DNA of 33,996 nucleotides from Verrucomicrobia bacterium LW23 (lineage in GTDB: Bacteria; Verrucomicrobiota; Verrucomicrobiia; Methylacidiphilales; UBA1321): assembly GCA_003054695.1 (NCBI GenBank), contig QAZA01000013.1, forward strand, positions 1 through 33,996, in the 5' to 3' direction. The position numbers were made by a program, and so were the translations under genes. A model generated the notes under the pieces. The model saw nothing but the letters and a program-made list of their open reading frames with translations, had not been told where the DNA came from and did not search any database. Below, one piece after another: positions 9,793 through 33,996 of the stretch (within the stretch, counting starts at the first letter, position 1; each line of letters starts with the position of its first letter).

Positions 9793-11050
9793 TTATTGTT
9801 TTGCCATGACGCTCAGGCCGCCGATGCCGGCAAGACCGGCGACGGCCCAGGTGATATTGCCGGAGTCATAGACGCCGCCGGATTGCATGAGGCACACGCG
9901 GATCAGGCCGACACCTGGCGGCTTTTGCCGGAGCGTGGCGGTGAGATTACAGAATTGTGCGGTGTTGGGCGCGTAGGTGAGCGAGGCGCCGAGGTTGGAT
10001 GTCGCCAATGCGGGGCCGGAACCCGTGTCGAAGCAGATGCCCAGGTCAGCACACTGCCTGGTCGCAGGCAACGATAACTTTGACGCGGTAGCGGAGATGG
10101 GATCGATGGCGAGGCCGACCATCATCTGCACGTAGTTTTCCTCCAGCACGGGGGAGCTGCCATAGATTTGCCAGCCGCCTTAGTAGGTTCCCGTCAGGCT
10201 TTCCGGCGCCGCTTTGAGTGGCTTGTTGACACGATTGTACATGGACCAGATGAGGCGAAGTCCGCTTAAATCAAAGGTGTAGCTCGTGGAATCAGAATCG
10301 ATTGCGTAGATGGAGCCGACATAGCGATGGGTTGGCGTGCCCGCCTTGATGATGACCCCGTCCAGCGTGGCTAGCGCAACAGCTCGCGTGTTGGGAGTGC
10401 TCGCGGCACGCCATCAAGTTTGGCTTTATCCTCTCCGCTCATCAGTCCGGACGGACCGGAAGCAACAGCGTTTGCGATGACGTCCGCGCCGCCGGATGCG
10501 TGCTCGGCGGCGTGCGAAATGCTGGCCTTACCGGCAAGGGAAGCAGTGAGCCCGGCGACTTCGCCCTGGCTATGCGTGTGCGAGGGCCTCTGCTTTTCCT
10601 CCAAGATCCGCGACCAGTCCGGTAACCTCGGACTGCGAATGCGTGTGCGCCGCAGGCGGAAAAGCCGTGGGCTTGTCCTCTATACCTTCCCAGGCGGTCG
10701 TACCGGCCGGACCTTGGTCCCCGGTATCGCCTTTGTCGCCTTTCGGGCCCATTTCGCCCTGGGGGCCGGCAGGTCCCACTGGCCCCGCACTTCAAGATCC
10801 GTCGCCGCGATACCAGGTGGCATCGCCGGGTTCTCCTCCGGCCGAGGCGTCCAGCATTTCCGGAGTAATGGATGGGATACGCGCCGAGCCCAGCACGCCG
10901 GAGGTAATGTCCATGGCACCGTGCAAATGCGGGGCCGGCGGGTAATTCGATGGCTTTCCGGTATGCGATGACCAGGTCACCGCCGCCAGGGCTGACGCGG
11001 CAAAATCGGTGATGGTGGCCACCAGTTGTGATCCGGTGTGGTTGGCCCGG
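9793..11050 (-). pseudogene. Phage-type tail-fibre gene with collagen-like repeats, multiply disrupted and 5'-truncated
   Basis: Translation of the minus strand from 11050 gives fibre-type sequence ([41 protein letters not shown]). A collagen-like Gly-X-Y run follows (GPAGPQGEMGPKGDKGDTGD), then HTHSQSEVTGL and HTHSQGEVAGL repeats, then SGLMSGEDKAKLDGV. A terminal domain contains RYVGSIYAIDS and LIWSMYNRVNKPL, a signature I associate with phage fibre tips. The frame is broken by TGA at 10792-10794, by a frameshift near 10570-10605 that is compensated by a second near 10375-10400, and by TAA at 10180-10182. The 5' end is cut where an IS fragment begins at 11051. A functional product is very unlikely. 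It indicates an old prophage or phage-derived particle locus whose remainder is absent here. Confidence 0.75.
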
Positions 11051-11483
11051 CTCGCCTTTTTAGTTTATGTCACACACTCTGCATTGCTTCGCCAGATCGC
11101 CTATTTGAAAGCTGAGAATGAGATTCTGCGCTCCCGGTTGAAAACCATCCAGACCACGCCGGCTGAACGCTCGGTCCTCGTGCGCCTCGGCGCGCCACTG
11201 GGAAGCTCGATCCGGGAAGTCCTCGGCATTGTCCACTACAAGACGTTTCTGCACTGGGTTCGGAAAGAACGAGGTGGAACAAATATCGAAACTGCCCCTC
11301 GTAAGCCCGGACGCCCTTCCATCTGTCCGGACGTTACCGCCCTGATTTTGCGCATGGCAAAGGAAAGCGCGTGGGGCTATGCCCGGATCGCAGGCGAACT
11401 CAAAAAACTCGGCATCATTGTGGCCAACAATACCATAAAGAAGATCTTGATAGTGAATGGTTTCCATCCCTCGCCGTGGAGAG
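11051..11483 (+). pseudogene. Truncated copy of an integrase-type IS transposase (copy 1)
   Basis: From CTCGCC at 11051 the sequence is clearly homologous to the IS at 15634-16059, both in DNA and in the protein ([57 protein letters not shown] written here as [15 protein letters not shown]). Only the N-terminal helix-turn-helix half survives. Similarity ends around 11483 at NGFHPSP, just before the transposon end at 11489, so the catalytic rve domain is missing. The 5' side also lacks the leader present in copy 2. The two copies differ at many bases, so they are old relatives rather than a recent duplication. It interrupts the tail-fibre gene. Confidence 0.8.
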
Positions 11484-11488
11484 TGCGC

Positions 11489-11549
11489 TGTTATTTCCCA
11501 CAAACCGATCGTAGGAAGTAGTGATTTTGGAACGGGAATGGGATCGTAG
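11489..11549 (+). repeat. Transposon left end with two TCGTAG sites
   Basis: The terminal TGTTA is at 11489-11493, and TCGTAG occurs at 11509-11514 and 11544-11549, 35 bp apart in the same orientation. The first is at exactly the same distance from the tip as the outermost site of the right end, which is why this is taken as the element end. The remaining stretch to the first gene (11550-11744) is purine-rich and shows no further copy. Confidence 0.7.
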
Positions 11550-11744
11550 GGAGTTTGTGGGGAGGGGGTCTGAAAGAGGGAATCTTGGGCGAAGGGGCAA
11601 GGCCGGGGGGAAGAAGGGGATTTGGCCTGGAATGGGGGAACGGAGCGAAGCGGAGTGAGCCCATGGAGGGCCAAATCCGCGCCGGAGGCCTCCCGTGCGG
11701 AGGCGAGGATGGACGGGGGTGGTCCTTCACGTAAGGCTTGGAGG

Positions 11745-12449
11745 ATGAACTTGCCTTTTGCGGGTGGTGCGTCGATTTCGTATGTGGCGGATGCTGAGGG
11801 GTTTGCGCGGTATTGGCCGGGGCTTAAGCAGGTGACTTGTCCGCATTGCCGGGTGGCGGGGTATCTCAATCGGCATGGGTATTTGCGTGGGTATGATGTT
11901 GAGGCGCAGGTGGTTGCGGAGGCGGGCGGCGACTTGGCTTCGGCGCGAATGGTGCGGGGGTGGCGGGTGTTTTGCAGCAATCGACGGCGCCGCGCGGGGT
12001 GTGGGCGGACGCATCCGGTGTTGCGCGCGGGGGTGTTGTGGGGGCGTGTGGCGACGGCGCTGTTGCTCTGGAAGTTCTTGCTGCAGATGCTCTTACAGGC
12101 CGGGACCGGCGCCGGCCGAGCTGCCAGCAAGGCGCCGTGTGTCGCCACGGCGTGGCGGCTCGCGTGCTGCAACCACGTTGTGCCTCCTTTAAGCGGGGCG
12201 TGCGGCTGCCGGTTGTGGCGCGTGTGGCGCTGGGCGCAGCCGTGGATTCGGTCGTGCCTGTGCCGCCGTGGGACTTCGCCGCCAGTCTCGGGCGGGGGCG
12301 GGAGCGGGAACGGGCAGAGGGATCCGCTTATCGGCGCGATTGAGGACCTGCGACAAGTCTTTGCGGGGCAGGATGTTGGCTCGGATCCGAGCTTCAATCC
12401 CATTGCTGCCTTTCAGCTCCGGTTTCAGCGCCCGTTCTTTCCACAATAG
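11745..12449 (+). CDS. Zinc-ribbon accessory protein of the transposon
   Basis: A protein of about 234 aa. Near the N-terminus it has VTCPHCRVAGYLNRHGYLRGY, a CxxC zinc-ribbon half, followed by MVRGWRVFCSNRRRR then GCGRTHPVL, which supplies the second pair of cysteines. The pattern of 'CPHC, NRHGYLRGY, CSNR-RR-GCGRT' recurs in small proteins I associate with transposase genes in Verrucomicrobia and relatives. The C-terminal end DPLIGAIEDLR...NPIAAFQLRFQRPF also looks conserved. The middle (about 120-185) is unusually Cys/Trp/Arg-rich and may hide compensating frameshifts. The frame is open from 11622; the ATG at 11745 is the first that begins recognisable sequence, although GGAGG abuts it with no spacer, so the start is uncertain. 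It probably helps the transposase recognise DNA; this is inferred from position. Confidence 0.6.
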   Translation: MNLPFAGGASISYVADAEGFARYWPGLKQVTCPHCRVAGYLNRHGYLRGYDVEAQVVAEAGGDLASARMVRGWRVFCSNRRRRAGCGRTHPVLRAGVLWGRVATALLLWKFLLQMLLQAGTGAGRAASKAPCVATAWRLACCNHVVPPLSGACGCRLWRVWRWAQPWIRSCLCRRGTSPPVSGGGGSGNGQRDPLIGAIEDLRQVFAGQDVGSDPSFNPIAAFQLRFQRPFFPQ

Positions 12450-12542
12450 GAGCGTAGCGCACCGGGCCCAGATTGGCCGCGCAGGGCGGCAACACATCCG
12501 TTCTGTTGCAGCTACAACGGGTTGCGTGCCAGCTTTCCGGCG

Positions 12543-13906
12543 ATGAAAAATCCATCTCCCTATCTGAAAATGCATGTGCTCGGCGCGATTGACGCGGCTC
12601 CCGGCAGGAGCGAGCGTGAGCGGATCCGGCATGTCGCGGCGTTGCCTTTTGTTGACGAGGAAGGCAACACGCGACACTTTACCTGGCGAACTATTGAGAC
12701 CTGGTTGGTACGCTATCGAAAGCATGGTATCACGGTCGTGCACAACAAGATACGCAAGGATAAAGGCACCTCCAGGCGAGTGACGCCGGAGGCTGTCCTG
12801 GAAGCCGTGCAGGCGGCGCTGCCCGCGTTTCATAACAAAAAGTTTACTATTGCGTCCCTCTATCGCCATTGCATCGAGCGCGGGCTGCTTCAACGTAACC
12901 TGATCGCTCCCAACACGTTCCGCCGTATTGTGGAGCGGTGCGACATGCTCAAGGATGACGTCGAAACGGAATCGAAACAGCGCCGGGCTTTCTCCAAACA
13001 GTACGCCAACCAGATGTGGCAGGCCGACACGATGTTCGGGCCGTATCTCAAGACCGACACAACTCCTTTATCCACAGGGAGTTCACGCTCGTCTTCGTCG
13101 ACATCCCGCACTCGCGCAAAGAAGCCCGCGCAGCAGGCCAAACTCATCGCGTTTCTCGATGACGCTTCGCGCGTCGTTGTCCATGGCGAGTTTTTCCTCC
13201 AGGAAAACGGCGATACGCTCATTCGTGCTCTCAAAAGCGCGCTCTACAAGCGGGGCGTCCCGGAAGTGCTCTATGTTGACAATGGCTCTATCTATAGTTC
13301 AAAGGAGATAACACTCATCTGCGCCCGCCTGGGCACCATCCTCTCCCACACGCCCGTGCGCGACGGCGCCGCCAAGGGAAAGGTAGAACGCTTTTTTCGC
13401 CATGTGCGTGAATCCTTCTTGACGCGGGCTTTAGATCTCTCCTCGCTGGAAGTCCTTAACAGACAGTTTATTGCGTGGCTTGAGGACGAGTACAACGCCA
13501 ACAGGGTCCAGCGTCACGCTGGTCTGCCATCGGCATGCGCCCCATCGATCGCTTCGGGATCGACCTCCCGCGCATCCGTTTCCTGCCGCCCGGCGAGATG
13601 AACGACGAACTCTTCTACATGGAAGAAGAACGCCACGTCAAAGCCGATAACACCTTCTCGCTCAAGAGTATCCGATTCGAGGCCCCCGTCGATTGCGCCA
13701 ACCGCACCATCCAGGTCAGGTACGATCGTGGCCTCGCCTCCAGTAAACACCTTAAAACAGCCGCTGTTTACTTGAAGGGAACACGCCTGGGCAACGCCCG
13801 CCTGCTCAATACCGTCGCCAACGACCGCCCGCCCCTCGGCGCGCCTTCCTCTCAGCCGGCAACCACCCCGGTCGCGGCAGCCCAGGTCAAAGTCAACATC
13901 AGATAA
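12543..13906 (+). pseudogene. TniA/MuA-like DDE transposase, one frameshift near 13525-13535
   Basis: The first frame (12543-13601) gives an N-terminal helix-turn-helix region (TWRTIETWLVRYRKHG), then an rve-type catalytic core with MWQADTMFG, VLYVDNGS and AAKGKVERFFRHVRESF. The second D and the E are separated by exactly 35 residues, the D35E spacing of this superfamily. After YNANRVQRH the sequence becomes nonsense, and the expected continuation (IGMRPIDRFGIDLPRIRFLP, then the small beta-barrel region of Mu-type transposases ending VKVNIR) resumes in another frame to 13906. One inserted base, or two deleted, near 13530 would restore a protein of about 454 aa. The ATG at 12543 is preferred over a TTG at 12522. 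It lies 93 bp after the zinc-ribbon gene and 53 bp before the ATPase gene. Confidence 0.8.
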
Positions 13907-13959
13907 CACGGGCGCGCCTGCCTTAACAGGCTGCCTTATCCTTTTCCTTCCTTTCCATC

Positions 13960-14769
13960 ATGATCCGCTCCTACTTCGGCCTCGCGCTGCAACCCTTTCA
14001 TGCCGAGACACTTACCCTGCTCGAGCATCAGCAGGCCATCTTCGACACGCTGCTCGTCCACTGCCAGCAGGGCGGCCTTTGCCTCCTTCTCGGACAACCC
14101 GGCACTGGCAAATCCACCCTCAAACAGGCGCTTCAACAGCATGATAGTCAACGACTTATCACACCCTGTATCGGCCGCACGCTGCACACCTACCGCAACA
14201 CCCTGCGCATCCTCTGCCAGGCCTTCGCGCTCGATTTCGACGGCAACGACATCAAATGCGAAAAGCGCCTCATCGAAGAAGCGTTCAGGCTCAACCACTT
14301 AGGCAAATCCATCGCGCCCATCATCGACGACGCCCACCTGCTGGACATGACCACCCTGCGCAAACTGCGCCTGCTTTTCGAGGAATTTCCCAAAAACCAC
14401 AACCTCATCCTCATCGGCCAACCCGCCCTTCTCACTGCCATCACGCTGACCGTCAACGAGGATATCCGCTCCCGCGTGACCTATTCCGTCGTCGTCCCGC
14501 GCCTCAACCCCGACCAGATCCGCTCCTTCATCCTCGCCGAACTCGATCGTATCTCCTTGCCCCACAACACCTTCTCCGACGAGGCGCTCAATCTCATCGC
14601 CCGCTCGTCCGAAGGCGTCCTGCGCCGCACCCGCAACCTCTGCCTCTCCTGCCTGCTCGAAGCCGTCCGCGACCGCACCAAACACGTCGACCTCAAACAA
14701 GTCAACAAAGTGTTGCTTCAACCCCACTGGCGCCACGAACACGACGTCGACCCCGCCGCACCCCATTGA
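13960..14769 (+). CDS. ExeA/TniB-like AAA ATPase of the transposon
   Basis: A 269-aa protein opening with YFGLALQPFHAET, the ExeA-family start. Walker A GQPGTGKST follows at about residues 47-55, then Walker B APIIDDAHLLD (about 121-131) and a sensor-type IGQPAL segment. A C-terminal helical region (FSDEALNLIARSSEGVLRRTRNLC) contains arginines fit for an arginine finger. In Mu, Tn7 and Tn5053 elements the cognate ATPase (MuB, TnsC, TniB) selects the target DNA and activates the transposase, and the same job is inferred here from its place directly after the DDE gene. It is intact, unlike the transposase. The synonymous-codon style (C-ending) is like that of the transposase second half. Confidence 0.85.
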   Translation: MIRSYFGLALQPFHAETLTLLEHQQAIFDTLLVHCQQGGLCLLLGQPGTGKSTLKQALQQHDSQRLITPCIGRTLHTYRNTLRILCQAFALDFDGNDIKCEKRLIEEAFRLNHLGKSIAPIIDDAHLLDMTTLRKLRLLFEEFPKNHNLILIGQPALLTAITLTVNEDIRSRVTYSVVVPRLNPDQIRSFILAELDRISLPHNTFSDEALNLIARSSEGVLRRTRNLCLSCLLEAVRDRTKHVDLKQVNKVLLQPHWRHEHDVDPAAPH

Positions 14770-14800
14770 GCCCCACCTGAACCCCACCACACCGGAGTCG

Positions 14801-15071
14801 TCGTAGCGACCGGAAGGGAGGGACATGCCGTGTCCCTCCCGCTTTCATTCAATACTCCTACCGCCCATGACCATTACTGTCGTAGCGGAAAAGCGACGAT
14901 AACGCCTCCTGCCGCTCCGGTCGTAGCAAAAACCACTGATACGCATCCCGGTTATCAACTCAAAACCTACGACACTTCAGGAAATTAAATACGATGAGAG
15001 CTCGGCAATTTCTCCAAAATCCTACGAGCAGAATTTGGAATTCCGCTACGACCAGAAAGTGGCCCGTAACA
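14801..15071 (-). repeat. Transposon right end with six TCGTAG sites in two opposed groups
   Basis: TCGTAG occurs on the plus strand at 14801-14806, 14880-14885 and 14921-14926, and on the minus strand at 14967-14972, 15022-15027 and 15046-15051. The outermost three point inward from the tip like the left-end sites, and the inner three have the reverse orientation. The base after the core is G or C in every case. The tip is at 15071. About 0.2 copies of a given hexamer on either strand would be expected by chance in this length, so the cluster is not random. Confidence 0.7.
14816..14840 (+). terminator. Stem-loop after the transposon ATPase gene
   Basis: GGGAGGGACA at 14816-14825 pairs perfectly with TGTCCCTCCC at 14831-14840 around a 5-nt loop, 47 bp after the ATPase stop codon. 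It is followed by GCTTTCATTC, a weak T-rich tract. It is a likely transcription terminator for the transposition genes, although it sits within the end-repeat region. Confidence 0.6.
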
Positions 15072-15606: not shown

Positions 15607-16682
15607 ATGTCGTTATTCGCCCGCAATCCATTGCTCGCATTTTTAGTTTATGTCACACATTCTGCACTGCTTCGGCAGATCGCCTATTTGAAAGCTGAGA
15701 ATGAGATCTTGAGGTCCCGGTTGCCGAAAACCATTCAGACCACACCGGCTGAACGCTCGGTCCTTGTGTGCCTTGGAGCACCGTTGGGCAGCTCGATCCG
15801 AGAAGTCCTCGGCATAGTGCACTATAAGACGTTCCTGCAATGGGTTCGGAAAGAACGAGATGGAACGAATGTAAAGGCAATGCCTCGCAAACCTGGCCGG
15901 CCCACTATTCCCCCGGATGTCACCGCCCTGATTCTGCGCATGGCAAAGGAAAACGCCTGGGGCTATGCCCGGATCGCAGGCGAACTCAACAAGCTCGGGA
16001 TCCAAGTGGCCAACAATACGATCAAGAAGGTGTTGATTGTCAATGGTTTCCATCCATCTCCATACAGAACGAAGGGAGACTGGGATAGATTCATTCGCCT
16101 TCATGTGGAGACATTATGGGCGACCGATTTCTTTACCAAAGACATCTGGACTGCAGGAGGTAAAGTCACTTTCTACGTGCTTTTCTTCATCCACGTAGGT
16201 TCCAGGCGAGTCCACATCTCGGGAGTGACCTGCAATCCGACCGGCCCTTGGGTCGAGCAGCAAGCGCGAAATCTTGTGATGGATTTGCAGGATCGCGGTG
16301 AGAAGGTCAGCTATCTTCTGCGCGACGGAGACACCAAATTCACTCAGGCGTTTGACGAGATATTCAAGAGCGAAGGGATCAAAGTTAAAAGCTTCCGCGA
16401 GAGTCTCCCAACCTCAATGCCTTCGCGGAGCGGTTCGTTCAGACCATCAAAAATGAATGCTTGAGACATTTCGTGGTGTTTGGGCAGAAGCACCTGGAGT
16501 TTCTGTTGAGAGAATTCGCGTCCTACTACAACACCGTCCGACCGCACCAGGGGATCGCGAACCGGACCATCGGAAACATCATTCCGTTTCCAACCCAAGC
16601 CGCGCCGCCCCGGCCGGAAGACATCCAATGTGAATCCAAACTGGGCGGATTGCTGCGCCATTATTCGCGAAAAGCGGCATAA
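15607..16682 (+). pseudogene. IS transposase with integrase (rve) core, frameshifted near 16397-16410
   Basis: The first frame (15607-16464) contains the N-terminal helix-turn-helix ([45 protein letters not shown] minus the first residue as [15 protein letters not shown]) and the integrase core with LWATDFFTKDIWT, VLFFIHVGSRRVHISGV and LLRDGDTKF. At ESL the frame breaks. In the next frame SPNLNAFAERFVQTIKNE follows directly and supplies the catalytic Glu. The protein ends with the family-typical tail LGGLLRHYSRKAA before the stop at 16682. With the shift corrected it would be about 358 aa with a complete DDE triad. There is no obvious slippery heptamer at the break, so a mutation is more likely than programmed frameshifting. 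Confidence 0.8.
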
Positions 16683-29364: not shown

Positions 29365-32300
29365 TTATGCATCAGGTCGTGCGTCGCCGATATAGAGTAA
29401 AAAGAGCGTTTTGCAACGAATCTCACAGCTATCATATACTGCATCCCATCTACGATCTGCCATTAGGGATTGCAACATCCCATAGAAATTTGCAGCCATA
29501 TCGACTACTCCATCAGATGCCTCACTCCAGACATTTTGATTGCGGCTGTAAACTACATAAATATCCTTCACTTCTTTAAGAACGCTAAAGATAAAGGCGA
29601 TAGCAACTTGTCCTTGCATGCTTACCGACGCGCAATTGGTAAAGCAGTGCCTCATTTTGTCCATCTTACGTTCATCATAAGGAATACTACTACTAAATCT
29701 ACGGTCCGCCTCTTCTTTAAGATGTTCGTGCAACATATACTGACCTGATGCATATATTGCCGTTAGAGTCCCTGCTCCCAATTGTACAGCCATTCCTATG
29801 GGAGTAACCCTGCTCAAATACTCCCTGATCCCATGTCCAGTTGGATCAACATAATTAATGGGATTGTTAAAACAGTACCGATTAAGAATGTAGTCCCCAG
29901 CCTTAAAGCCCATAGGATCTTCTGAGATGAATGTCCCTAGAGCTGGATCATAATACCTAGCCCTATAATAGTAGAGTCCTGTGTCATCGTCAAGTTCACG
30001 TCCGGTAAATGCCAGTGAATCAGTGCCGGAACCCACGTATTCCCTGGAACCGAAGCTGGAGTATTCGCTGCGACTGAGCAAAGTGGTTCCGTCGCGGGAG
30101 GCCATGGAGCGTACGGTCCCCAGGCGGTCGCTCAGGTACCAGGCGACTTCCGTCTGGCTGCTGTTGTTGGAAGAACGCTGTCTGGCGAGCCATTGGTCAT
30201 AACCTTCTCCGTGAAGAAAACGGGTTACCTCGCCTGCGGGAGCAATCTCCTTCCAGATGTGTACGCCGTTGTAGAGATACTTGGTTGTCTGGCCCTGGAC
30301 CGTTTTGGCAATACGTCGATCCAGCGGATCGTAGAGGTAGTAAGATGCGCGTTGAGTGACCCCATCGGATGAGACGGAAAGCGCGGAGAGCAGGCGATTT
30401 CGATGATCGTAATCATAGACCATGCTTTCGCCTGTGCTGATGTTACGCTTTACAGTCAGATTGCCTTCTGCATCGTACGTGTACGTATAAGTAGAGTCTG
30501 TGAGTATCTGATTGTTTACTCCTACGGAATAGGTTGTTGTTGAATTTCCCTTGCTTGAAGAGGTTCGATTGCCTGAAGAATCGTAGGCAAACGTTTCCGA
30601 TGCCTGGGTCTGAAACCGCTTTGATCCACTGATCACCTGCCCGTTATTATCATAAGCGTAAGTCGTGGTGTCTCCCCGGGATGTTTCGGACGCCAGACGT
30701 TCTGTTGCATCGTAGGTATACTGGAAGTCTTCTAACACTTCGGCGCTATTGCTATGCGTAATGCGTGCAACGCGGCGATAGGGAGCAGCTTTTGTAGCGG
30801 ACAGGGAGCCTGCGCTTCCATTTGCACCAGGCCCAAGTAAATCCCGACCGGGGAATTGCGCCTGCCCCATCCGTGCCAAAAATTCCTCAATAAAGGAGGA
30901 TGCCTTTTGTGGCTGTCCATATTCGATAGCCGTATTCATGGCCAGTTGGGTTCCCTGTACGTCAGTAAATCGAGTGATTTGAGTCAAGTCCCCCACGGAA
31001 TTACGTGTAAAATCGATGCGGGCCGGCAGAAAAGCTCCTGAGCCCGTCCACACCAGCCGCTTTAGCTGAAGTCGTTCATCGAAGTATCGTGAGACACTGA
31101 CCCCGTCACCATCCACAGCAGTGAGCACGCGCGCTGCTTCATCGTGATTGAACTGGAGCACGAATGGCGAGGGGATAAAGTCTTCATCGTAGGTAGCGGA
31201 CTGCTGTACGATTCGGCTACGGCTATCATACTGATAGCCTAAAGTGGTGAAATCATCAGAGACGGATTCTCTGTTCCCTAGTGCATCGTAGGTGAAGGAA
31301 ATGGTTTTTACGATTTCTTCCGAGCCTGGAGACAGCCACACCTCCTTGATTCGGCGGTTCATCGTATCATAAGTGAACTTGCGCACTCTGCCCAAGCGAT
31401 CCGTGATTGAAGTCAGGTTGGAGGCAGCATCGAAAGTACAAGTCGTGACTCGGTTAAACGCATCTTTTTGAGCTGTAAGCTGGTTGATAGAGTTGTACTG
31501 AAAGGTTGTACGGTTGCCGTTGGGATCAATAAGAGCAGTCCGTCTGCCGCTAATATCATATTCAAACTTGATCTCCGTTGAGTCAGGTTGCTTGATCTTC
31601 TCAAGAGCGCTATCTGCACGATAGTACTTGGACGTCACGCGTCCCAAAGGGTCGGTGGTAGTTATGTGCCGACCTAGTTTGTCCCAGGCGAATGACGTTA
31701 TAGTACCGTTGGGATCAGTTCTCTTAATCAGGCTGCCTCTTAGATCGAACTCGTAATAGGTAACCTGGCCCGCAGCATCCGTAGCGGAAGAAAGCTCTCC
31801 TCGATCGTTGTAGCTGTAGGTTGAAGTCTGCCCCAAACCATCTGTCTTGCGTAAAAGCTTTCCAGAGGGATCTGTCTCCAGTGTCTGTACCGAGCCTGTG
31901 GGGTCCTGGGCGGAAGCAATCTTTCCGAACATATCGTACGTTATTCGGAAGGTCCCGTTATCCGGCATGGTGATCACCGACGGCCTGCTTGCAATAACAC
32001 CGGATTCATCGGAGGCTGCATACTCCATCCGGATAACGTGATTCAGGCTATTGGTGATAGAGGTAGGCCTTGCAAATTCATCTGACGCAAAGGTCGTTCG
32101 CTTACCTTCAGGATCGACAGTTGAGGTAATATTCCCCTGCGCATCAAACGTATTTCGTATGGTATTCCCAAGAGCATCCGTTCTGCTGACAGGCAGATTG
32201 TTCTGATCGTAGACCATTGATGTGATATTTCCGCGAGCATCGGTATTGGTAAGCTGGTTTCCACGTGAGTCGTACGTAAAAGTCCGACTGCAACCGCACG

Positions 32301-33996
32301 GGGGTGTAACTGTCAACGGATTGTTGTTGGAATCGAAGGTGGACGCCGAGATCGCGCCGACGGGGTTAATGTTGACAAGCAGGTTTCCACGTTCATCGTA
32401 GGTATTAATAGTCACACCTCCAAGAGGATCCGTTTGGGTCTCCGTACGATTAGCCTCATCGTAAACGATTCCCGTGATATTACCCATGGCGTCAGAAACT
32501 GTACTGAGGCGTCCCTGTCCGTCGTAGTTGGTTATGGATATGGGGTTGCCTAGTGGATCCAGAATCTGATTAAGGTAGTGAGCTGGAGTTTCAAAATAGC
32601 CAAAGCTGGTGTATCTGCCGGCCTGGTCGGTGACGCGGTCGAGCTCTCCAGCGGCGTTATAGGTGTAGTGAATGATGCCACCCTGCGGGTCGGTGATGGA
32701 GGTGATGCGGCCGGAGGCGTCGCGTTGGAATTTGACTTCGGCGCCGGTGGTGGTGCGGATGCCGGTGGCGGAGAAGGTGAGGACGTTGCCGTTGCGGTTG
32801 GTAATGGTTTCCAGGCCGCGGAACTGGTTGTAGCGGTATTTGGTGCCGTCTTTGGTGGTGAGGGTGTAGGTATCTGGGTTGTAGATGAGGTTGAAGAGGT
32901 AGCCGGTGACGGAGCCGTCGGGGTTGAGGGTGAGGGCGGCTTCGCCGGTGTCGAGTTTTTCGTAGACGCCTGGGTCGGGTTGCCAGTATGGGAAGTAGAC
33001 GTCGCCGAAGAGGGCGGAGCTGGGGTAGATTTTGGGTTGGAAGGTGAAGCCGATGCGGCGGCCGTCGGGGGCAAGGAGGGTGACGCGGGTGCCGTAGCGG
33101 AATGTCTTGCGGTACGCATAGCTGGTGCCGGCGGCTTCGTAGGGGTCGACGGGGACGCTTTCGGTGATGCGGGCGTTTTGGAGGGCTAGGCTCCAGCCGT
33201 AGCCGAAGTCGCCTTTGCGGCCGGCTTCGAGGCTGTCGTAGACGCGGGTGACGGTGATGGGGATGCCGGCGACGGGGATGGTGAGGTCCGTTACGGGCAG
33301 CAGCACGCGGCCGAGTTTGAGGTTGCCGGTGACTTCGATGACATAGCCGCTGGTGCGGATGTTGCCGCTGACGTCGCCGCCGGTGAGGCGCAGGTAGTAG
33401 CTGCCGTTGGCCAGGACGGTGGGGTCGATGCGGCCGAGGTGGCCGCTGACGTTGGCGGTGCCCTGGGCGATGAGTTTGAAGGCGGGGTTTTCCTCCGTAA
33501 GATTTTGCGTGTTAACAAGATCCATCGGCGCCATCTCGAGCTTCCAGTACTCCAGCCCGTCGTCGGTAACCGTGCCGCTGATGTCGGTGGCGGTGGTGAT
33601 GATGCCGTTGACGGCTTCGAGCGGGGCGGAGTCGATGGTGACGGTGGGGAACGACTGGTCCGCCGGGTTAGTGACGCGGATGGTCTGGGTGGCGGTGCCG
33701 ATGTTGCCGGAGCGATCGCGCGCTGTGGCGACGACGGGGATGAAGCCGGAGCGGGCCACGTTGAGGTAGGCGATGCCGCTGCCGTTGAGCGCGACGGGTG
33801 TGCCGTCGACGGTGACGATCAGGTCGGCCAGCGCGTCGTTGTCGGTGGCGAAGGCTTGCAGGCCGAGCTCGTCGCCCAGCTTGAGCACAGTATCCGTCAC
33901 GGTGAGGCTGACGACGGGGAGCGTCGTATCCGTTTCCGTAACAAGGGTATACGTCTGCTCGATCTCGCCTCCGCGGCCGTCGCTTACGGCCACGGT
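29365..33996 (-). CDS. RHS/YD-repeat protein with variable C-terminal domain (5' end outside window)
   Basis: More than 1540 aa, open to the window edge, so the N-terminus and any signal are not seen. The first 200 residues visible are Ig/cadherin-like beta domains (TVDGTPVALNGSGIAYLNV, VARDRSGNIGTATQTIRV-type). A conserved RHS entry domain follows (GRVLLPVTDLTIPVAGIPIT, FGYGWSLALQNARI), then dozens of YD repeats (for example TYDSRGNQLTNTDARGNITS). The RHS core ends with the typical YRARYYDPALGTFISEDPMG and NPINYVDPTG. The 154 residues after that (nt 29365 to about 29829) form a variable tail with HCFTNCASVS, KEVKDIY and DMAANFYG and a late Cys-x3-Cys. Such tails are usually toxins or effector-like domains released from the RHS shell. 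The tail fold is not one I can name with certainty. GC content falls sharply left of about 32,630. Confidence 0.85.
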   Translation of the reverse strand, partial: TVAVSDGRGGEIEQTYTLVTETDTTLPVVSLTVTDTVLKLGDELGLQAFATDNDALADLIVTVDGTPVALNGSGIAYLNVARSGFIPVVATARDRSGNIGTATQTIRVTNPADQSFPTVTIDSAPLEAVNGIITTATDISGTVTDDGLEYWKLEMAPMDLVNTQNLTEENPAFKLIAQGTANVSGHLGRIDPTVLANGSYYLRLTGGDVSGNIRTSGYVIEVTGNLKLGRVLLPVTDLTIPVAGIPITVTRVYDSLEAGRKGDFGYGWSLALQNARITESVPVDPYEAAGTSYAYRKTFRYGTRVTLLAPDGRRIGFTFQPKIYPSSALFGDVYFPYWQPDPGVYEKLDTGEAALTLNPDGSVTGYLFNLIYNPDTYTLTTKDGTKYRYNQFRGLETITNRNGNVLTFSATGIRTTTGAEVKFQRDASGRITSITDPQGGIIHYTYNAAGELDRVTDQAGRYTSFGYFETPAHYLNQILDPLGNPISITNYDGQGRLSTVSDAMGNITGIVYDEANRTETQTDPLGGVTINTYDERGNLLVNINPVGAISASTFDSNNNPLTVTPPCGCSRTFTYDSRGNQLTNTDARGNITSMVYDQNNLPVSRTDALGNTIRNTFDAQGNITSTVDPEGKRTTFASDEFARPTSITNSLNHVIRMEYAASDESGVIASRPSVITMPDNGTFRITYDMFGKIASAQDPTGSVQTLETDPSGKLLRKTDGLGQTSTYSYNDRGELSSATDAAGQVTYYEFDLRGSLIKRTDPNGTITSFAWDKLGRHITTTDPLGRVTSKYYRADSALEKIKQPDSTEIKFEYDISGRRTALIDPNGNRTTFQYNSINQLTAQKDAFNRVTTCTFDAASNLTSITDRLGRVRKFTYDTMNRRIKEVWLSPGSEEIVKTISFTYDALGNRESVSDDFTTLGYQYDSRSRIVQQSATYDEDFIPSPFVLQFNHDEAARVLTAVDGDGVSVSRYFDERLQLKRLVWTGSGAFLPARIDFTRNSVGDLTQITRFTDVQGTQLAMNTAIEYGQPQKASSFIEEFLARMGQAQFPGRDLLGPGANGSAGSLSATKAAPYRRVARITHSNSAEVLEDFQYTYDATERLASETSRGDTTTYAYDNNGQVISGSKRFQTQASETFAYDSSGNRTSSSKGNSTTTYSVGVNNQILTDSTYTYTYDAEGNLTVKRNISTGESMVYDYDHRNRLLSALSVSSDGVTQRASYYLYDPLDRRIAKTVQGQTTKYLYNGVHIWKEIAPAGEVTRFLHGEGYDQWLARQRSSNNSSQTEVAWYLSDRLGTVRSMASRDGTTLLSRSEYSSFGSREYVGSGTDSLAFTGRELDDDTGLYYYRARYYDPALGTFISEDPMGFKAGDYILNRYCFNNPINYVDPTGHGIREYLSRVTPIGMAVQLGAGTLTAIYASGQYMLHEHLKEEADRRFSSSIPYDERKMDKMRHCFTNCASVSMQGQVAIAFIFSVLKEVKDIYVVYSRNQNVWSEASDGVVDMAANFYGMLQSLMADRRWDAVYDSCEIRCKTLFLLYIGDARPDA

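Follow-up and report, generated by a model that had tools for sequence, protein, structure and literature searches.

An old, probably immobile copy of a compact transposon family with zinc-ribbon, DDE transposase and AAA ATPase genes in Verrucomicrobia bacterium LW23

In the stretch of 33,996 nucleotides analysed here (the window), it is highly likely that positions 11489-15071 represent an old, probably immobile member of a compact transposon family of the DDE-plus-AAA kind. Judging from sequence comparison, the family is a genuine mobile one, as argued by its conserved zinc-ribbon gene, its recurring tips and a 5-bp target duplication in Undibacterium. The original prediction was of a complete transposon of the Mu/Tn7/Tn5053 type, and completeness is the part that fails. 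Both ends are present (Table 1), but the element is functionally not complete: its transposase is frameshifted, the fourth gene of its relatives is missing, and it has no target duplication.

Table 1. Features of the element and its surroundings in the window.
Feature	Position	Strand	Remarks
Left flank, IS481/IS3-like transposase fragment cut by the left end	11009..11488	+	84% identical copy elsewhere
Left end, tip TGTTATTTCCCACAAACCGATCGTAG and second TCGTAG at 11544	11489..11549	+	Motif positions 21 and 56 match relatives
Zinc-ribbon plus helical (HTH-like) protein gene	11745..12449	+	Relatives' profile E 3e-61
Transposase, N-terminal and catalytic part	12543..13601	+	Profile positions 1-301, E 2e-163; rve domain
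Transposase, C-terminal part, other frame	13484..13906	+	Profile positions 298-401, E 4e-42
AAA+ (ExeA/MuB-like) ATPase gene, intact	13960..14769	+	AAA_22 4.5e-13; family profile E 2e-146
Right end, tip TGTTACGGGCCACTTTCTGGTCGTAG	14801..15071	-	Motifs 21, 45, 78 and 100 from tip
Large YD-repeat/Rhs gene, runs off contig end	29365-33993	-	Holds many TCGTAG outside the element

Structure of the window element

As predicted, the exact pattern TGTTA-N15-TCGTAG delimits the element: it occurs at only two sites in the whole window, 11489 (+) and 15071 (-), in inverted orientation, and CCAC occupies tip positions 10-13 at both ends. The eight TCGTAG motifs ascribed to the ends are also there, two at the left (11509, 11544) and six at the right (14801, 14880, 14921, 14967, 15022, 15046); the right-end motifs nearer the tip are followed, farther inside, by three in reverse orientation. 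Over the whole window TCGTAG is found 29 times against 8.9 expected, and 11 of the plus-strand hits fall in the YD-repeat gene at 30-33 kb, in which Tyr-Asp codons give the hexamer on the complementary strand. With a tip model built from relatives only and a score range set by 20 shuffles, the right tip scores 30.4 against 16.8 for the best shuffle. The left tip scores 14.2, inside the shuffle range, and is therefore degenerate when taken alone; its second motif stands at position 56, and at 55/56 in relatives.

Between the tips lie the three predicted genes, for a zinc-ribbon protein, a D35E transposase and an AAA ATPase, all recognized by family profiles. The catalytic residues (D161, D224 and E260 of relatives) are present, with exactly 35 residues separating the second D from the E. 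The two transposase frames overlap at 13484-13601, and the first departs from the profile near 13525. A programmed frameshift was rejected as first choice, since aligned relatives read the transposase in a single frame and no slippery site is evident. Because the frameshift detaches the C-terminal domain, the window copy would be mobile only with transposase supplied in trans. The zinc-ribbon frame is intact with in-frame insertions, and its reading frame could start at 11622. The fourth gene of relatives is absent, and no further gene stands between the tips, hence no resolvase gene is seen there.

At the junctions of the window copy we sought a target duplication and found none, the flanks reading TGCGC (left) and TTTAC (right). 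None is visible because the IS481/IS3-like gene stops at 11488 and does not resume right of 15071. A second copy of that flanking gene lies at 15607-16464, with 84% identity to the left-flank fragment over 15633-16055.

Relatives, their ends and their targets

A scan of 84,980 species genomes yielded 22 relatives with 50-66% transposase identity and the same gene order. They come from Verrucomicrobiota, Lentisphaerota, Planctomycetota, Nitrospirota, Myxococcota, Spirochaetota and others, mostly as metagenome bins, so that some taxon labels may be wrong. Within Verrucomicrobiota a match at E 1e-80 turned up in only 6 of 388 genomes; the family is therefore broad but sparse. In the tree, the window copy groups with Nitrospirota and Lentisphaerota copies (99/96), which implies horizontal movement. 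An IMG/VR scan by ATPase profile and the phage records gave no relatives. Complete copies measure 3.3-3.9 kb from tip to tip and carry no cargo. The zinc-ribbon gene is kept in all 22 close relatives and in the Undibacterium plasmid element, and the ATPase gene in 21, the contig of the remaining one ending before it. To these three genes relatives add just a ~95-aa gene (12 of 22), which resembles a CHC2/DnaG zinc finger in a few members, or another short ORF; no TnsA was seen. At one locus (L023, 588-1310) the zinc-ribbon gene lies on the strand opposite the transposase, and in an Undibacterium copy (L071, 4765-6825) transposase and ATPase are fused into a single 686-aa reading frame.

Tips like those of the window recur in most copies with located ends. 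Among 27 tips of relatives, T1, G2, T3 and C22 are invariant and A25 is kept in 26; most were first located by a pattern derived from the window, and C10 and T16, kept in 25 of 27, lie outside that pattern. The Undibacterium pUKW01 copies provide an independent test, their tips having been located by copy-versus-copy comparison without a pattern: these copies are 99.9-100% identical, and their boundaries coincide exactly with TGTAA-N15-CCGTAC and TGTTG-N15-TCGTAC. Counted from the left tip of relatives, motifs fall at 21 and 55/56; counted from the right tip, they fall at 21, 44/45, 78 and 100/110. The ends thus recur as expected, but no convincing tip could be located in several relatives. 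The repeats are candidate transposase sites, multiple at both ends as in the DDE-AAA superfamily, and the end architecture resembles that reported for Tn7-like elements (PMC8649781).

The anticipated 5-bp target duplication is seen in the pUKW01 self-insertion, where one copy lies inside another and GCGAA is duplicated, but is absent at the window copy and in most single-copy relatives. A copy in Candidatus Didemnitutus (L034) has TTGAAC on both sides and sits in a non-Rhs gene. On pUKW01 (86-94 kb) a full copy inside another is followed by another right-end fragment, and the nested array comes straight after genes for an Rhs-type toxin and an immunity-like protein. In Rhodopirellula (L086, C19:1-8000), nested and inverted fragments of the same family lie within the element's own ATPase gene. 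From such arrangements, self-insertion may be common in the family.

The zinc-ribbon protein and its sister elements

The zinc-ribbon protein has the conserved pattern C..C..H..RG.R..C...GCG. A structural model made from a relative (pLDDT 90) shows a zinc ribbon plus helices that match HTH domains weakly. Foldseek searches with the model against the PDB and viral models gave no match at E 0.001 or better. VIA-align found an NrdR-like zinc ribbon (Z 4.6) and a LuxR-type HTH (Z 5), both too weak to name a family, and no Pfam, NCBIfam or PDB family fits. Since it combines a zinc ribbon with an HTH-like part, the protein is most likely a DNA-binding accessory factor, a role suggested by predicted fold and gene order alone.

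A distant homolog is DUF6431 (hhalign 96%). In Cupriavidus and Geobacillus plasmids a DUF6431 gene stands ahead of a DDE transposase and an AAA ATPase, and in Acidithiobacillus ahead of a DDE transposase; in Pandoraea and Rhodococcus, unnamed proteins occupy its position. The order zinc ribbon-DDE-ATPase is, by sequence, not unique to our clade, with sisters in Proteobacteria, Firmicutes and others. The sister elements (for example Cupriavidus pBB2, Acidithiobacillus mpAca1.1, Geobacillus pGS18) share gene order and a homologous zinc ribbon with the family, but have only ~30% transposase identity and the inner motif TTTGAG/TCAG instead of TCGTAG. Their tips, where found, read TGTTAC or TGTAAA, some having TGTTACGTCCC or TGTAAATTA tips with other inner motifs. 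In Verrucomicrobiota genomes, DUF6431 hits showed no tie to such elements.

Association with Rhs loci

Rhs toxin genes are used by bacteria against each other. At 9 of the 20 loci with usable flanks (L021, L031, L035, L036, L039, L040, L043, L071 and L087) the element or its remnant sits inside or next to an Rhs/YD gene, at most 1.5 kb from it, and at all nine that gene is on the strand opposite the element genes. L043 is a fragment of the window's family (64% identity). Most of the Rhs-candidate ORFs tested match Pfam RHS_repeat. Counted by flank, Rhs is present in 10 of 29 against 20 of 557 background tiles from the host genomes. Most of the background tiles with Rhs belong to a single giant gene of the Undibacterium plasmid, which lies close to one of the nested element copies. 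The Fisher p-value of 2.7e-7 is a guide only, because the test is post hoc, paired flanks are not independent, and L043 and L087 are remnants. The association of the family with Rhs is nevertheless statistically strong. The window copy does not fit this pattern: 14 kb separate it from its nearest Rhs gene (29365-33993), which has the same relative orientation.

The genome of LW23 itself holds remnants at such loci. On three small contigs (C35, C6 and C43; loci L007, L008 and L009) a right end like that of the window, with 80-84% identity, lies in the same order of parts: Rhs core, the last ~50 ATPase codons with the right end, an immunity-like gene with a toxin tip, then Hint and Rhs core. The junction is common to all three and falls at a short stretch that is nearly identical in Rhs and ATPase (CCTGCGGCG / CCTGCGCCG). 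Identity is 98-99% for the Rhs core pieces, against 77-81% for the adjoining transposon ends. These contigs look like an orphan Rhs cassette array, each cassette being bordered downstream by what appears to be an old right end. On C6 the right tip is doubled. An isolated left-end fragment (L010, G000:C1:93592-93674) is 78% identical, with no other element part matched beside it.

We see about an even chance that the Rhs link reflects survival rather than targeting, in that Rhs loci are long, dispensable and prone to recombination, so that insertions persist there but are tolerated only when they run convergently with Rhs transcription. Mobile elements are known to disrupt orphan arrays of the related CDI systems (PMC3150448), and both the copy with a clear target duplication, in a non-Rhs gene, and the window copy, which is not adjacent to Rhs, are consistent with this explanation. 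Against it, the sister elements, in the copies seen, and other DDE loci scanned in the same way have no Rhs neighbours (L043 being counted in the family), and in five cassettes (C35, C43, C6, pUKW01 and L040) right tips lie ~10-54 bp beyond immunity-like genes. The alternative, that the family homes in on Rhs loci and always with one orientation, is more tentative. It proposes that RTCGTAG, as the core of the transposase site, mimics in reverse complement the Tyr-Asp codons that recur throughout Rhs genes, and that the right end, placed by the immunity gene, becomes a shared downstream border of exchangeable toxin-immunity cassettes. RTCGTAG occurs at 0.9-2.5 per kb on the matching strand in 7 of 8 Rhs pieces, against a background of 0.12 per kb, and almost never on their other strand, a bias that arises because RTCGTAG is the reverse complement of C-TAC-GAY.

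Discussion

The assignment to the Mu/Tn7/Tn5053 type is borne out by the transposase profile, which matches TnsB (7svw, E 9e-10) and IstA of the IS21-type IS5376 (E 1e-7) in the PDB. Among family transposases, rve is found in 14 of 14 and Mu-transpos_C in 6 of 14. By sequence, the family would work like Mu and Tn5053, with a TnsB-like transposase and a MuB-like ATPase; no TniQ was found. Tn5053/Tn402 (TniA-TniB-TniQ-TniR) shares the TnsB-type transposase, the AAA partner, the apparent lack of TnsA, TG...CA ends with arrays of ~20-bp sites and the 5-bp duplication. The family differs in having different tips, no cargo and apparently no room for a resolvase, and in carrying a zinc-ribbon/HTH protein in place of TniQ together with a MuB-like ATPase. 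Bacteriophage Mu (MuA-MuB) likewise has a DDE transposase, a MuB-like ATPase that hands over target DNA, as it probably does in the family, and a 5-bp duplication. Unlike Mu, the family has three to four genes, no phage genes and different ends.

TniQ is a zinc-binding, DNA-binding target selector. This likeness, together with the TnsB-like transposase and 5-bp duplication shared with Tn7/Tn5053, would fit an element of that family whose zinc-ribbon gene is a diverged TniQ. We consider this improbable: Pfam TniQ matches none of 19 members, hhalign to R751 TniQ gives 0.3%, and the family ATPase is closer to MuB (92%) than to R751 TniB (6%). Least credible is the view that this is simply an insertion sequence of the IS481 or IS21 family whose neighbouring genes are bystanders, for although the best NCBIfam match of the transposase is IS481 (NF033577) and a sister transposase is annotated as such, the score of 141.5 bits is under the IS481 cut-off of 224 and also under that of IS21, TnsB is a better PDB match than IstA, and zinc-ribbon and ATPase genes are constant partners across several phyla, both inside the ends. 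The part lost to the frameshift falls outside the IS481 model's match. That the family is unnamed, as first suggested, is plausible when judged against Pfam, NCBIfam, the PDB and the literature, where we found nothing specific on the gene set; its gene order, however, is shared with the DUF6431 sisters.

For a DDE-plus-AAA family of this kind, we propose the course known from Mu and Tn5053: transposase bound to the TCGTAG-type repeats would bring the two ends together and link them to target DNA that the ATPase presents. The zinc-ribbon/HTH protein may replace TniQ as a DNA-binding target or assembly factor. Transposition is probably replicative, as there seems to be no space for a gene encoding TnsA or a resolvase; this mode would account for the nested copies as well as for the lack of target duplications. 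Replicative events within one molecule would leave single copies without duplications.

Databases annotate this family just as separate pieces: an IS481-like transposase, an ATP-binding protein and a hypothetical or DUF6431 protein. It is now defined by its tips, gene set and target duplication, and suggests that a machine of the Mu/Tn7 type uses an accessory DNA-binding protein other than TniQ. Should the Rhs link be causal, the family would provide a concrete agent, and a testable recognition rule, for the bordering and rearranging of Rhs toxin-immunity cassettes.
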